This document shows positions 54,936-60,585 of a DNA stretch of 64,000 nt, piece after piece. The notes under the pieces were generated by a model. It saw only the letters and a program-made list of their open reading frames with translations. It was not told the DNA's origin and ran no database searches. The translations under genes were made by a program, and so were the position numbers. Location: the NCBI GenBank assembly GCA_028819255.1, contig JAPPMB010000147.1:144031-208030 (forward strand), given 5' to 3'. Source of the DNA: Bryobacterales bacterium. GTDB lineage: Bacteria > Acidobacteriota > Terriglobia > Bryobacterales > UBA6623. Position 1 is the first letter of the stretch, and each line of letters begins with the position of its first letter.

Positions 54936-55586
54936 GTGACCTGGCCGTCGGATCGCTGGAAGCCGGTCCTGCGGAAGGTGTGCGGGGTCACGCGGGCTCA
55001 GGACGCCCGCCACGCCAGTCGCGCGGGCGCGAACGCGATCGGGATGATCTTCTATCCCCCGAGCCCTCGCTCCATCACTGTGGACCAGGCGGAGGGCCTT
55101 GCCGCCGCCGTGCCCGACGGCGTGCGTCGCGTGGGAGTCTTCGTCGACGAGCGGCCCGAGGACATCGCCGCCATCGCACGGAGGGCTGGGCTCCACACGG
55201 TCCAGCTCAGTGGCCGCGAGAGCGCCCCCGACTGCTCGGCTGTCCGCAGTATCGTCGGGAGGGGAATCGAGGTCTGGAAGTCGGTTCGTGTCGGGCCGGG
55301 ATTCGACGCGGCCGGGCTCGATGCCTATGACGCGGACGCCTTCCTCCTCGACACAGCCCGCTCGGGGTCTTTCGGCGGAACCGGTGCCGTCTTCCCCTGG
55401 GAACTGGCCGCCCTTGTGAAGCCGTTAGGCAGGATCATCGTCGCCGGCGGGCTGGACGGAAGCAACGTCGCCGAGGCGGCTCGGACCGCGCGGCCCTGGG
55501 GGGTCGATTCGAGCTCCCGGCTGGAAATCCGCCCCGGAGTCAAGGATCCCGCGAAGGTCGAGAGCTACCTTCGAGCGGTCCTCTGA
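54936..55586 (+). CDS. trpF: Phosphoribosylanthranilate isomerase
   Basis: TrpF isomerises phosphoribosylanthranilate in tryptophan synthesis. This 216-residue TIM barrel shows LRKVCGVTRAQDARHASRAG (catalytic Cys), IGMIFYPPSPRSI, RRVGVFVDERPEDI, HTVQLSGRE, FLLDTARSGSFGGTG (catalytic Asp) and GRIIVAGGLDGSNV. The start GTG 54936 is supported by length and ACGGAAG upstream. No other trp gene is near. Its last 30 codons are repeated, degenerate, in front of copies 2 and 3 of the next gene at 58915 and 60160. Confidence 0.93.
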   Translation: MTWPSDRWKPVLRKVCGVTRAQDARHASRAGANAIGMIFYPPSPRSITVDQAEGLAAAVPDGVRRVGVFVDERPEDIAAIARRAGLHTVQLSGRESAPDCSAVRSIVGRGIEVWKSVRVGPGFDAAGLDAYDADAFLLDTARSGSFGGTGAVFPWELAALVKPLGRIIVAGGLDGSNVAEAARTARPWGVDSSSRLEIRPGVKDPAKVESYLRAVL

Positions 55587-55598
55587 GGTGGCGGATCC

Positions 55599-55985
55599 GT
55601 GGCCTGGCAGTCCGCCCGGATGCGGTACTTCCTCGGGGATCTGTCGGCTACGGCGCTTGCCAGCGCACTTGCGGCGGTTGCGGCCGCGCTCGCGATTCCC
55701 GATTCCCTGCCCTCTCTGGCGGGCATGTTGATCGGAATGGCGCTAGGCACCGTCCTCGCGCTGCCATGCACGCTGGTCGCTAGTCAGTTTCTGGGCATGA
55801 TCGAACCGATGATTCAGATCATGCTCGGCTGCATGATGGCCGGCATGGCCGAGGCTATGGCGGATTCCGCGGGTGCGGCCCTTGGGCTTGCCGCCGCTGC
55901 CGGGCTGGGTTCCGGGTGCGGAATCGTGGCTTGCCTGTCTTGCGCCGTTGCCGACTGTGTGCTGCGCCAGGAGAGAGCTGAATGA
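55599..55985 (+). CDS. Small hydrophobic membrane protein (intact copy 1 of 3)
   Basis: This 128-residue membrane protein is rich in Ala, Gly and Met, with segments at about 15-33, 40-65, 68-90 and 95-118 (SLAGMLIGMALGTVLALPCT, then MIQIMLGCMMAGMAEAMADS). A GTG start at 55599 is conserved in position in all three copies; GAGGTG lies eight bases upstream. Its TGA overlaps the ATG of a methyltransferase remnant, the same coupling as in the complete downstream pair. Function unknown; position between trpF and the methyltransferase suggests the original gene order. Confidence 0.75.
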   Translation: MAWQSARMRYFLGDLSATALASALAAVAAALAIPDSLPSLAGMLIGMALGTVLALPCTLVASQFLGMIEPMIQIMLGCMMAGMAEAMADSAGAALGLAAAAGLGSGCGIVACLSCAVADCVLRQERAE

Positions 55986-56071
55986 AGCTTCCAGACCGCC
56001 AGAAAGGGCACAACATCCAGTTGTGCATACCGGGGACGGACATCACCGGCTTTCCGAGGCCTGCGGCCTGA
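55982..56071 (+). pseudogene. 5' remnant of the methyltransferase gene
   Basis: This remnant starts ATG at 55982, overlapping the previous stop. It reads MKLPDRQKG, matching MMLPDRRKW of the complete gene at 60583, and then leaves homology and stops after 30 codons. The shared sequence GAAGCTTCCAGACCGCC... versus GATGCTTCCGGACCGCC... marks the left boundary of the insert at about 56010. Confidence 0.8.
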
Positions 56072-56505
56072 GACGAGGGGATGGCTCCATTCCTGCTTGG
56101 GCGGTCCTACGTGCATGGTTCCTCGGACCACCCGCTGCCTCCAAGGTCCCACACAACCTCCATGCAACTCCCCGGCTCTCGCGTTCCGAAGGCGACTTGG
56201 CACAAGACCGCCTCGCCCCACGTCAGCGCTGGAGCCGCCGGAGCGATCGTCGAGGCCGGCGGCGCGTTGGGCGACGTCGACCGCGGCCCGTGGCACCTTG
56301 AGGGTCGAGGCGGAGACGGCCCGTTTCCCCAAGCTTGCACGGGCTTCCGGAGCGGCCGGGATTCCCGTCCACTCCCCCTCTCCGGGCTGCCTCGGAGGTG
56401 CGCACGGTGCCGCGCGGCAAGCGGCGCGGGCACTGTCCTTGGTCTACGGATCGCTACGGGGCGGCCGCAAGAGCAATGCTGACGCGAATCTCGGATTCAG
56501 CGCCT
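56072..56505. other. Insert segment without a recognisable gene
   Basis: About 430 bp lie between the methyltransferase remnant and the DUF5615 gene. Open frames on both strands show no family I know. Confidence 0.45.
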
Positions 56506-56881
56506 TCAGCCCCAGCCCCGCTCTCGCCGGCGATCCCGGGTTCGGTCCGGGTGTCTGGTTTCCCCGATGAGGTGAAATGTCCGGGACCGCCGCTCCTCGA
56601 GCAACGCGGTCGCTTGCGGCAGGAGGAGTTGCAGATCCTGCACTCGCAGGCCGGGGGGCCGAAACACGACAACAGGGGGCGGGGTGTTCCGGTTCTGCTC
56701 GTTCGGCATCTTCCTGTCCGCCGTGATCAGCGCATCGAATCCCCGGGGCCGCCGCGAGCCGGAGCAGTTCGCCGTTCCCCTTGCCGTTCCAGCCCATCCG
56801 CTGGGTGCTGCGGAGATCCCAGGCCTCCGGAAACGAACGGGCCAAGGCATACGGGAGGTTCTCATCCAGCAGGATCTTCAT
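56506..56881 (-). pseudogene. DUF5615 PIN-like toxin with a one-base frameshift
   Basis: The first frame from ATG 56881 reads MKILLDENLPYALARSFPEA, then GWNGKGNGELLRLAA. The family sequence continues in the next frame as RGFDALITADRKMPNEQNRN, then PPPVVVFRPPGLRVQDLQLL. Removing one C from the CCCC run (forward 56745-56748) joins them into a protein of about 115 residues. DUF5615 proteins (LxDENLPxxLA...GHxVxTxxxxGWxGxxDxxLL...ALITxDRxM) act as toxins with DUF433 antitoxins. The gene overlaps the DUF433 gene by 20 bp. A sequencing error in the homopolymer is possible. Confidence 0.82.
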
Positions 56882-57104
56882 CCGGATGCCGGCTGAGCGC
56901 CTGTCGCGCTAGGCGCAGCGTTGCCCGGGCCTGCTCGCGGGAGACGGTGGGGAAATTGTGAAGGAACTCGGCCAGGGCGCTGTCGGTGTCGAGGTAGTCG
57001 AACAGCGCGGTCACGGGAACCCGGGTTCCGCGGAACACGACCGCTCCGCTCAACACCTTGGGGTTCCGGCTGAGAGGGGCCGGATTGCTTTCGGCCGTTG
57101 CCAT
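56862..57104 (-). CDS. DUF433 antitoxin
   Basis: This 80-residue intact protein has the DUF433 pattern NPKVLSGAVVFRGTRVPVTA (xPxVxxGxPxFxGTRVPV), LFDYLDTDSALAEFLHNFPT and VSREQARATLRLA. DUF433 proteins are small winged-helix antitoxins paired with DUF5615 toxins, as here. AAGGAGAACGAAGGAA precedes the ATG. It is the promoter-proximal gene of the pair on the minus strand inside the second junction-duplication insert. Confidence 0.88.
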   Translation of the reverse strand: MATAESNPAPLSRNPKVLSGAVVFRGTRVPVTALFDYLDTDSALAEFLHNFPTVSREQARATLRLARQALSRHPDEDPAG

Positions 57105-57411
57105 TTCCTTCGTTCTCCTTCGTGAACGAGAGTATAAGTCCCGCGCAAGTGTTCAGTCTGGGTCGGGCCGGGGCTTGGGAATCCGTGTAGCAGCGTTGCG
57201 TGCGCAACTGAGTTCTAGCAAACCGGCGTAAAGTTCTTCCCGCGACCTCGAAACATCCTTTTCGGGCCTGTCAGCGAGGGGGTTGAGAGCGGTTCCGTTG
57301 GACCCGCGGATCCTGCAGCTCCACGCCACAACTTTCCAGTACGCACGGCCTTCGTGACAGGCTCGATGGAACCGGCGGTGGACCGTGACATCCTCACCCC
57401 CGTGTGAAGAT
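57105..57411. other. Insert segment, no gene seen
   Basis: About 300 bp lie upstream of the DUF433 gene. No coding signal is recognised; the minus-strand promoter of the antitoxin pair is expected near 57130. Confidence 0.45.
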
Positions 57412-57590
57412 CTTGTGGCTATCCTGCCTTGGGGACACCTGTCCTCCCGTCTGCTGGCTGAAGTTTCCCGCTGCCTGCCCTTCGACTGGCAGTGCCGCTA
57501 CTGCATCTGACCGGTCCTCATCGAAACCTTCTGCGCGAGCGAGCGCTTCCATGGCGCCGCCAACTGGATCCTGTCGGCCAGACGCTCACC
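57412..57590 (+). pseudogene. Remnant of a DUF4338 (DruA-like) gene
   Basis: In one frame with an internal TGA the sequence reads LVAILPWGHLSSRLLAEVSR, CLPFDWQCRYCI, stop, PVLIETFCASERFHGAANWI. The family pattern is FLILPWVxVxxLASxLLxxVxxRLxxDWxxRYGYxPVLLETFVxxxRFxGTxYxAANWxxxG. Only this core is left. DUF4338 occurs in the Druantia defence protein DruA and in transposase-like elements; which one this was cannot be told. Confidence 0.65.
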
Positions 57591-57782
57591 CACAAGCCCT
57601 CGAACCCTCTCGCGGACTCAAATCCTGCAAACCTGCTTTGCATCCTGCACTTGCCGATCTGCCCGGAAGACCCCCGTACACAGGTTTCGCTGAAGAACCT
57701 AGCCAGACTGTTAGCGTGAACTGTCGTCGCGTTCCGTCGCTCGGTGCCCGTGCAATGCTGATGCCTCTACTAATACCCTTAC

Positions 57783-58841
57783 TTAAGCGTTGCTATCCCT
57801 ATTTCGCAGCCGTCGCCAGCGGGCAGCCGGGCCGCGTCCTCTGCAAGCCACATCGCCGGATTTCTTGAGATTGGCCAGGATCGTTCGAATCCAGTCGCGC
57901 CCGACGCCAGGACAGTCGCGTTGCAGGTCCATCAAGCGGAATTCGCCTTGGTACGCGCTGATGGCTGCGAGCACAAACTCGGCTTTGGTGCCCCGCGGAG
58001 CTTTGGCATTCCAGGCAAGATCTTCCAACTCGGCATAGGCCCGCCGGATAATCGCCAAGATGAAACTGAACCACGGCGTTAGGCGGTGCCGGTTTTGGTG
58101 CCAGCGACCAGTGCTTTGATGGAGACACTTGTAATAGTCTTCCCGGGATTCCTCAATGAGGCGTTCCAAGCTGACGTAGCCGCCGACATCGTAGCCGTGA
58201 TGGTAGAGCGCGAGCAAAGTGAGCAGTCGGGAAACACGGCCGTTACCGTCCCGAAAGGGATGGATACACAGGAAATCATGCACAAGGGCCGCAACTGCGA
58301 TGAGCGGACGTACCGCTTGGTCTTCAAAGGCTTGTCGGTAGCGTTCGCAAAGCTCTGCGATGGCCCCCGGTGCCTTCTTGGCTGTGACGCACCGGAACCG
58401 GATGGTTGGGACCTTGCCCGGCGTGAGCTGGACGATGTCGTTGTCGAAGCGTTTGAACTGGCCGGCATCGCCGCTGGCGGGCTGGCACAGCGCATGGAGG
58501 CTGCGAATGGTGTCTGGCGTGCAGACTAGACCGGCGTGGCCGGAATGGATTTCGCTCAACGCTCGACGATAGCCTTGGACTTCCTGCTCAGACCGGTCTT
58601 GAGGCCTCGAATTGCCCAGCACGAGCGGCTCAAGACGGTTTGGGCCAACAACGACCCCTTCGATCCGATTGGAAGACTCGGCGCTTCGAACGATTGCCAA
58701 ATCGCGCAGCGTCTTCAGGAAGCGGGGAGTCTGTTGCGTGAGAAATTCCTGTCTGCCCTTGAACTCCGCGATGTCGTTAAGCAGCCAGACCGTGCTGGCG
58801 GGTACGCGATAGTCTCTTAGACGACCACTGCGGAATGACTG
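57783..58841 (-). CDS. Fic-domain protein with N-terminal inhibitory motif
   Basis: This intact Fic protein has about 352 residues. The N-terminal helical part carries the class II inhibitory motif (AESSNRIEGVVV, SxxxEG). The Fic core is LVHDFLCIHPFRDGNGRVSR (HPFxDGNGR, catalytic His, nucleotide-binding loop). A C-terminal winged helix follows (YQGEFRLMDLQRDCPGVGRD, then RTILANLKKSGDVACRG). Fic enzymes transfer AMP or other groups to target hydroxyls; this architecture is a self-regulated AMPylator. Start ATG 58841 is preferred to an upstream GTG at 58895. It lies on the minus strand in the insert and begins about 75 bp from repeat copy 2. Confidence 0.88.
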   Translation of the reverse strand, partial: QSFRSGRLRDYRVPASTVWLLNDIAEFKGRQEFLTQQTPRFLKTLRDLAIVRSAESSNRIEGVVVGPNRLEPLVLGNSRPQDRSEQEVQGYRRALSEIHSGHAGLVCTPDTIRSLHALCQPASGDAGQFKRFDNDIVQLTPGKVPTIRFRCVTAKKAPGAIAELCERYRQAFEDQAVRPLIAVAALVHDFLCIHPFRDGNGRVSRLLTLLALYHHGYDVGGYVSLERLIEESREDYYKCLHQSTGRWHQNRHRLTPWFSFILAIIRRAYAELEDLAWNAKAPRGTKAEFVLAAISAYQGEFRLMDLQRDCPGVGRDWIRTILANLKKSGDVACRGRGPAARWRRLRNRDSNA

Positions 58842-58914
58842 CATGCTTCGCCCTACATCATATGGAGCGGCTTCGAGGCCTTGCGCTCTCAGCACAGCGT
58901 TTCCCGAAAGATGC

Positions 58915-59217
58915 CACCGAGAAGGGGGTCCCGCTAAGGCGGAGAGCCGCCTTCAAGCCGCATTGCGAGAAAGGGTGCCCGTGCTCTGGAAATCCGACCG
59001 AGTGCGATGCTCCCTCGGGGATCTGTAGGCGGCCGCCCTCGCGACTCTCGATTTCGTGCCTCCGCGGCCAGCATGCTGATCGGAATGGCGTTTGGCACCG
59101 TGCTCGCACTGCCATGCGCGTTGGTCGCGGAGCAGTTCCCCGGCATGGCCGTGGCGATGGCGGATTCTACGGATGCGGCCCTCGGACCTGCTGCGGCCGG
59201 ACCTAGAGGGTGACTCA
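58915..59217 (+). pseudogene. Repeat copy 2: trpF 3' end plus remnant of the small membrane gene
   Basis: The first part (AAGGCGGAGAGCCGCCTTCA) matches the last codons of trpF. Then comes GTGCTCTGGAAATCC, aligned with the GTG start of the membrane gene, followed by CTCGGGGATCTG and an in-frame TAG. AGCATGCTGATCGGAATGGC is followed by GGATGCGGCCCT near the end. About 50 bp present in copies 1 and 3 (encoding the IEPM...LGCMM stretch) are deleted. The homology ends beside the stop of the ExoIII-like gene. Confidence 0.85.
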
Positions 59218-60006
59218 TTCGCAAGAAAGGTCCACAATGACAGGAGCTCCCTGCGCCCACTTGCAACCCGGAAGTTCCGGAATCTCTTTCCGATACTCCA
59301 AGTCCACGCACGCTTCGCGGAGCCGGTGGGCGACGTCGCACGAGCCAAGAATCCGGTGCAGCCTTGCCGAAACCGGATTGTGAATGTTGAACCCGTAGTT
59401 GTAGCCATCACGGCCTCTTGAGTGACGGAGACGGTACAGGTCACGAAATCCCAAGCCTAGGATGCGGTCCAATTCCTCTCTCTCTTCTTTCGTGAGGCCC
59501 AAGATTCCGGGCACAGGTCCGCCATCCGAGACAACGTTGAAGTCACCTGCCAGGACGCAGCGCTCGGGGCGCGTCGATCGCCTACCGAGATGTTTATGTA
59601 AGAGCTTCAGCCACTCGATCTTGCGTTTCAACGCTCCGTCGAACCCGAGTTTTTTGGGATTGCCGTACGGTGCGTAGACCGACGAGAACTCGAGATCTCC
59701 GGTTCTCACTGTCAGAAGGCGCGCGCCACGGTCCCGTTGGCCGGGCAGGCCGCGTTGCATGACTTCTGGCTTCGGACCGTTCATTCGACTCAACACGGCC
59801 ACTCCCCAACCGTTGTTGGATTCACCGTCGCGGGAATAGAACACCGATTCATAGCCTGCTTGCCGGAGTGCATCTGCGGGAAACTTGTCCGTTGCCGCGA
59901 GCGGCTTCTGGAGAGCGACGACGTCGGGCTTTCGGCTTGCTAGCCAATGGCAGAGATATTTGAGGCGGGCCTTGATGCCACCCACACACCAAGTCGCGAC
60001 CCGCAT
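59215..60006 (-). CDS. Exonuclease III-like protein lacking catalytic residues
   Basis: This 263-residue protein has the fold and order of ExoIII/XthA (MRVATWCVGGIKARLKYLCH, SVYAPYGNPKKLGFDGALKR, CVLAGDFNVV). Key residues are changed. WNVN is WCVG (Asn7), LQET is LQKP (metal Glu34), the RxDHIL region reads ARLHRILGS (Asp229), and the terminal SDH reads WAQGAPVIVDL (Asp258-His259 lost). Only Asp151-Asn153 (GDFN) and Tyr109 (YAPYGN) remain. It is therefore either a pseudoenzyme or a decaying gene that happens to have no stop. It lies on the minus strand between repeat copies 2 and 3, like the other inserted genes. Confidence 0.82.
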   Translation of the reverse strand: MRVATWCVGGIKARLKYLCHWLASRKPDVVALQKPLAATDKFPADALRQAGYESVFYSRDGESNNGWGVAVLSRMNGPKPEVMQRGLPGQRDRGARLLTVRTGDLEFSSVYAPYGNPKKLGFDGALKRKIEWLKLLHKHLGRRSTRPERCVLAGDFNVVSDGGPVPGILGLTKEEREELDRILGLGFRDLYRLRHSRGRDGYNYGFNIHNPVSARLHRILGSCDVAHRLREACVDLEYRKEIPELPGCKWAQGAPVIVDLSCE

Positions 60007-60139
60007 CTCTGCGATCATACTACGGAGACGGGCCCGAGAAGGCATGGTTGACGGCCGTCCGCAAGGCGGCGACGAAGTGGAGGCTGATTCACATCTCTGA
60101 AGCTCTGCAGCGTTCCGAGCGGCCACGCCGCCAAGGAAG

Positions 60140-60585
60140 GAACCGCTACTTGATGCCGCTAGGAAGGGGATTCTGCGAAGGCGGAGAGCTGCCTTCAGGC
60201 CGTACTGCGAGCAAGGGTGACTGTGGTCTGGATGTCCGACCGATTGCGGTGCTTTCTCGGGGATCTGTCTGCGGCCACACTCGCCGCTGCGCTCGCGACT
60301 CCCGATTCCCTGCCTCCCCGGCCAGCATGTTGACCGGAATGGCGCTTGGCACCGTGCTCGCAATGCCATGCAGGTCGGTCGCGGGGCAGTTTCCCGGGAT
60401 GATTGAACCGATGACCGAGATCATGCTCGGCCGCATGATGGCCGACATGGCCGTGGCGATTGCGGACTCCACGGATGCGGCATTTGGGCCGTCGCGGCTG
60501 CCGGACCGGGCGCTGGGTGTGAGATCATGGCTTGCCGCTTTGGTGCCGCTGCCGACTGGCTGCTGCGAAACGCGAGAGCCCAATG
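60140..60585 (+). pseudogene. Repeat copy 3: trpF 3' end plus degenerate small membrane gene
   Basis: GCGAAGGCGGAGAGCTGCCT matches the trpF end GCGAAGGTCGAGAGCTACCT (55552-55571). It is followed by a membrane-gene copy (GTGGTCTGGATGTCCGACCG, then TGTTGACCGGAATGGCGCTT, a frameshifted version of the intact gene). The homology runs on through the methyltransferase start (CAATGATGCTTCCGGACCGC). Several frame changes make it non-coding as a whole. Confidence 0.85.

Follow-up and report, generated by a model that had tools for sequence, protein, structure and literature searches.

A gene in a 64,000-nucleotide stretch of a Bryobacterales genome (contig JAPPMB010000147.1, positions 144,031 to 208,030; hereafter the window) encodes a protein of the exonuclease III (ExoIII) family in which most of the catalytic residues are replaced, and which is here called pseudo-ExoIII. 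The explanation that we prefer, at a probability of about 0.5 for the statement as a whole, is that it belongs to a horizontally spread clade of dead ExoIII paralogues in Acidobacteriota and acts as a regulator or blocker that binds nucleic acid without cutting it. Its pseudoenzyme status is well supported, and it is highly probable that a protein without normal ExoIII activity is being kept by selection. For the molecular role we infer nucleic-acid binding from sequence features, tentatively and at slightly less than even odds.

The former active site

The first-pass annotation of this DNA had described an open ExoIII-like frame of 263 codons at 59215-60006, and this frame was borne out on the complement strand (60006..59215, Table 1). 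The protein matches the Pfam family Exo_endo_phos (PF03372) with an E-value of 2e-12 and 47.7 bits, above the curated cut-off of 24.5, and judged by its profile scores the family resemblance exceeds chance. An AlphaFold2 (AF2) model, built on a 26-sequence alignment, shows a clean ExoIII fold with a mean pLDDT (predicted local distance difference test) of 85. The model matches the structures of NExo, the Archaeoglobus apurinic/apyrimidinic (AP) endonuclease and ExoIII with Z values of 31-34 (1ako, 2jc4, 6fk4, 2voa), and that of Crc with a Z of 29.4 (4f1r). The profile score above the cut-off and the four-layer fold of the model place the protein in the endonuclease/exonuclease/phosphatase (EEP) superfamily. 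It falls outside XthA as defined by NCBIfam, with equivalog scores that are too low (TIGR00633: E 1e-25, 90.3 bits, under the curated cut-off of 99.05; TIGR00195: 83.2 bits, under 182.55), and of the metal ligands N7, N9, E34 and D151 and the relay residues H259 and D229 only D151 is present. The genome of the window (6.7 Mb, 174 contigs) contains one further ExoIII gene; it encodes a canonical XthA, complete in its catalytic residues and 39% identical to the window protein.

Residues were compared between 12 intact pseudo-ExoIII members and 68 active homologues, namely the E. coli enzyme and 67 further intact proteins of the ExoIII family. The substitutions reported at first reading (N7 to C, E34 to K, D229 to H and D258-H259 to QG) each match this alignment, as does the retained GDFN motif, whose D151 and N153 correspond to residues 155 and 157 of the window protein. 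Further changes, absent from that reading, concern another metal ligand (N9 to G) and several lost features: the 'SWWDYR' loop with W212/F213, the D160 loop along with D160 itself, and K36. Compared with the active homologues, the family as a whole shows these losses. At the changed catalytic sites the canonical residue is found in 67-68 of the 68 active homologues, and an altered one in 12/12 pseudo-ExoIII members. Cys7 and Lys34 are both invariant in the members (12/12 each), in contrast to Asn and Glu in 68/68 active homologues. The remaining substitutions vary: N9 to G (rarely S or D), D229 to H or Q, D258 to Q or A, and H259 to S or G. At residue 217 one genus has His where the other has Gln, residue 252 is Gln or Ala, and residue 253 is Ser or Gly; members from the genus of the window carry Cys7, Gly or Ser at 9, Lys34, His at the D229 site, and Gln/Ala followed by Ser/Gly at D258-H259. 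Tyr109, Lys125, Gly150, Asp151, Asn153 and Asp197 are common to pseudo-ExoIII members and active homologues, and Y109, D151 and N153 are invariant in 12/12 intact members.

For NExo, four ligands of the Mg ion have been described, N7, N9, E34 and D146; D146 also handles the attacking water, together with H247 and D217 (PMC6294502). Catalysis by the known ExoIII route would be very unlikely in pseudo-ExoIII members, since three of the four metal ligands (N7, N9, E34) and the His-Asp relay (H259 and D229, with D258) are replaced in every intact one. The family resembles XthA, NExo and other class II AP endonucleases in fold, length and the motifs LQ, GDFN, Tyr109 and AP[VL], and differs from them in the replacement of N7, N9, E34, D229, D258 and H259 and in the lost SWWDYR loop.

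Distribution, selection and probable movement of the gene

The 12 intact members come from two distantly related genera of Acidobacteriota. In the genus of the window, 7 of 11 genomes carry an intact gene, and the proteins of the six other species are 63-66% identical to the window protein; these close relatives are metagenome-assembled genomes (MAGs) of Bryobacterales/Terriglobia. A search of the phylum and then of a whole genus found the same signature in 5 of 21 genomes of a second genus, which belongs to another class, at 46-49% identity. A normal xthA is also present in every carrier genome. Sampling 299 and 149 genomes from the two classes turned up no carrier outside these genera. A single-sequence scan of genome contigs gave no relative of the window protein, viral contigs held none, and an alignment scan of contigs, whose patterns would miss the second genus, returned only own-genus members and active enzymes. 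These results describe the distribution within Acidobacteriota, other phyla being thinly covered.

The first-pass annotation had suggested a pseudoenzyme kept for a new role rather than simple decay, and had named homologues with the same substitutions and dN/dS (omega) among its checks. Both speak for its suggestion: there are twelve such homologues, and the substitution pattern is purifying, not neutral. Omega, obtained by pairwise counting rather than from codon-model likelihoods, has a mean of 0.28 (bootstrap 0.21-0.39) among five species with the gene in synteny, and is 0.22 between the window and G004 and 0.25 within the second genus; for comparison, xthA gives 0.105, and neighbouring genes fall at roughly 0.07-0.24. 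The gene is under purifying selection and is not decaying, because omega lies at 0.22-0.28 with bootstrap upper limits below 0.4. Neutral drift simulated over the same distances put 4 to 9 stops in the frame. The motifs of the old active site are conserved better than any other part of the family, with a mean pairwise identity of 0.81 versus 0.55 elsewhere, a value matched by no other circular shift of the motif windows. Although the relatives are largely metagenome-assembled, assembly error is unlikely as a cause, because twelve frames agree.

The pseudo-ExoIII members form one clade (support 100/99) outside all active XthA sampled. Two damaged copies in G007, one with an in-frame TAG and GEFN and the other frameshifted, sit on long branches, and their exact position in the tree is unsure. 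Inside each genus the clade evolves at 1.8-2.1 times the xthA rate, whereas the ratio of distances between the genera is only 1.06, which points to transfer after the split of the two classes. Vertical inheritance from a common ancestor of both classes is disfavoured by the same ratios, an argument that saturation could weaken. The location of the gene depends on the species: in five it lies between a sulfatase gene and a CO-dehydrogenase-like operon, and in G004 and the window it lies elsewhere. In G009 the syntenic site (L161:2870-3010) has lost ~0.8 kb and keeps only the last codons of the gene, and no pseudo-ExoIII gene was found in G008, a single-contig assembly. Given the varying location, the G009 deletion, the broken copies of G007 and the lack of the gene in G008, pseudo-ExoIII is an accessory, dispensable gene. 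It is probably mobile; both the distances and its location, in an accessory insert in the window and, for the second genus, in operons of antitoxin-like type, speak for an accessory gene that moves horizontally.

Apart from this clade, a divergent ExoIII from a Defluviicoccus MAG (L076:3001-3792) lies on a long branch and has most catalytic residues intact but a Gly at position 9; it is possibly another unusual subfamily.

Genomic surroundings

In four relatives (G008, G004, G010 and G001) the flanks of the window locus are contiguous, with genes for PRA isomerase, the small membrane protein, the methyltransferase, bactofilin, Gfo/Idh and enolase. In the window the membrane-protein gene is followed by an insert (Table 1). 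It carries genes for a DUF433 and a Fic-domain protein as well as pseudo-ExoIII, along with two further copies of the membrane-protein gene, both decayed. The three diverged copies are confined to this locus in the genome, and the two decayed ones bracket pseudo-ExoIII. The DUF433 gene is followed, with an apparent frame change, by an open reading frame (ORF) starting MKILLDENLP, a start like that of a DUF5615-type PIN toxin; the two are probably a decayed toxin-antitoxin pair. The best PADLOC match of the Fic-domain gene is SoFic (E 4e-33), and the window protein itself matched none of the PADLOC models of known defence proteins.

Table 1. Positions in the window of the pseudo-ExoIII gene, its replaced and retained residues, and features of the surrounding insert.
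Feature	Position	Strand	Basis or remark
Pseudo-exonuclease III gene (P0001)	59215..60006	minus	263 aa, ATG to stop
Cys7, replaces metal ligand Asn7	59986..59988	minus	alignment; N7 is a Mg ligand in NExo (PMC6294502)
Gly9, replaces metal ligand Asn9	59980..59982	minus	alignment and NExo ligands
Lys34, replaces metal ligand Glu34 (12/12 members)	59905..59907	minus	alignment and NExo ligands
Tyr111, kept counterpart of ExoIII Tyr109	59674..59676	minus	alignment
Asp155-Phe-Asn157 of GDFN, kept counterparts of ExoIII Asp151/Asn153	59536..59544	minus	alignment
His217, replaces Asp229 of the His-Asp relay	59356..59358	minus	alignment and NExo mechanism
Gln252-Gly253, replaces Asp258-His259	59248..59253	minus	alignment and NExo mechanism
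Accessory insert (~4.5 kb) containing the pseudo-ExoIII gene	55986..60531	.	between small membrane-protein and methyltransferase genes, adjacent in four relatives
First membrane-protein gene copy, open	55528-55897		syntenic in relatives
DUF433 gene, then ORF starting MKILLDENLP	56444-57104		apparent frame change
Fic-domain gene	57783-58895		in insert
Decayed second copy of flanking membrane-protein gene	58910..59197	plus	beside 3' end of pseudo-ExoIII gene
Decayed third copy of flanking membrane-protein gene	60152..60499	plus	beside 5' end of pseudo-ExoIII gene

In the second genus the gene has a different setting. Its order in G454 is a gene for an Xre helix-turn-helix (HTH) protein, pseudo-ExoIII, a 72-aa HicB-like protein and a 70-aa ribbon-helix-helix (RHH) protein, with start and stop codons overlapping in the first and last gene pairs. 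G460 has the same set and G177 its last three genes, G220 carries downstream an RHH gene and an addiction antidote of the HI1420 type whose score exceeds the NCBIfam cut-off, and G228 has RHH and Xre genes upstream; the HicB assignment is below threshold. An antitoxin-like gene is adjacent and translationally coupled in most second-genus carriers, and absent beside the own-genus copies. Small and tightly packed, the operon with its Xre and RHH genes is like type II toxin-antitoxin operons (Xre, HicB and RelB/RHH antitoxins), but none of the operon genes tested was recognised as a known toxin, and own-genus copies lack such neighbours. We treat this context as a lead and as a rival reading, and keep it out of the best explanation, because copies in the window's own genus have no such company. 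G177 and G220 both encode a 269-aa protein (L178:8772-9581) upstream of the gene; it is shortened in G220 by an internal deletion and had no Pfam or NCBIfam match, and its stretch PDVLARVDGKLVGIEVT resembles a PD-(D/E)XK nuclease motif.

Proposed role, alternatives and meaning

How might a dead nuclease be of use to its host? We propose that the invariant Lys34 would stand in for the divalent metal. Together with Asp155, Asn157 and Tyr111 it would leave a metal-free phosphate-binding cleft; the protein would hold DNA or RNA there without cutting and so act as a regulator or blocker. This would be a Crc-like reuse of the fold that evolved separately, on an accessory, dispensable gene that would have moved between genomes. 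Of the roles that the first-pass annotation had put forward (DNA binding, an inhibitor, an immunity-like function), predicted binding of DNA or RNA without cutting is favoured, because pseudo-ExoIII is consistently shifted towards the basic side of its active paralogue. In 12/12 genomes it exceeds the genome's own XthA in basicity, with a mean net charge of +4.8 versus -7.9, and of +3.9 versus -4.9 once the catalytic columns are removed. Several points weigh against the proposal. Among the second-genus proteins the net charge ranges only from -4 to +6, and the gene is absent, deleted or broken in 4 of the 11 genomes of the window's genus. In addition, judging from the sequence, the classical ExoIII mode of DNA binding cannot be intact, because DNA-contact features (the W212/F213 loop, K36 and the D160 loop) are lost.

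A broader version sees the protein as a regulator or effector on the ExoIII fold that would be mobile and free of metal, Cys7 and Lys34 forming a pair where the metal once sat, and that in some hosts would be controlled by an Xre/HicB-like/RHH operon. This would put the AP-endonuclease fold to a new use, neither DNA cutting nor that of Crc/Hfq; at about one chance in four we consider it doubtful. It is unlikely, though by a small step more so, that the protein is an enzyme with new chemistry, in which Cys7, Lys34, His/Gln217, Asp155, Asn157 and Tyr111 would form a rebuilt active site for another substrate. The invariance of the replacement residues Cys7 and Lys34 and the strong conservation of the cleft motifs would fit such an enzyme, but no new catalytic set is fully fixed, as the variation at 217, 252 and 253 indicates. 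Still less likely is an effector or toxin-like part of a toxin-antitoxin-like operon, restrained by the neighbouring Xre, HicB-like and RHH proteins. Translational coupling to these genes in an operon without a recognised toxin, and the addiction antidote of G220, agree with it, whereas the window and five own-genus species carry the gene without such neighbours, the HicB match is sub-threshold, and gene content and order differ among the five genomes.

Crc, the catabolite repression control protein of Pseudomonas, is the nearest precedent, as a dead nuclease kept for another role. It is a relative of the AP endonucleases without nuclease activity that has lost part of the catalytic site (D210 and N212, with D283 and H309 kept, in hApe1 numbering) and has a reduced positive charge; the RNA binding once reported for it has been attributed to Hfq (PMC3662782). 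Crc structures (4jg3, 4f1r) and solved Hfq-Crc complexes exist. An improbable alternative is that pseudo-ExoIII is likewise a co-repressor acting through a protein partner and not by its own nucleic-acid binding. The shared fold and the same kind of change as in Crc are in its favour, but other residues are lost and the charge shift is opposite. In Crc D151 is replaced by Ser and N153 by Tyr, and N7, N9, D229 and H259 are kept; pseudo-ExoIII has the reverse pattern. Crc is acidic and works with Hfq, whereas pseudo-ExoIII proteins are mostly basic and Hfq (PF17209) was not found in 7/7 genomes tested, by a search whose control finds it in E. coli and four others and which a very divergent Hfq could escape. 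The likeness to Crc goes no further than the reuse of a dead nuclease, and the family is not a Crc. Least probable by far is a decaying xthA duplicate that is open by chance: losses in some relatives and a rate about twice that of xthA are what it would predict, yet 12 intact frames in two classes share the substitutions, omega is far below 1, and the deep clade of its own and 39% identity leave no recent xthA parent.

Catalytically dead members of the ExoIII family are rare, and a literature search on pseudoenzymes of the family found nothing beyond Crc, the sole one with a known function found here. To annotate genes of the present kind as exodeoxyribonuclease III would be wrong. A second clade, inactivated independently through complementary residues, would show that this repair fold is reusable more than once, and would give a comparison for what a pseudo-nuclease must keep.
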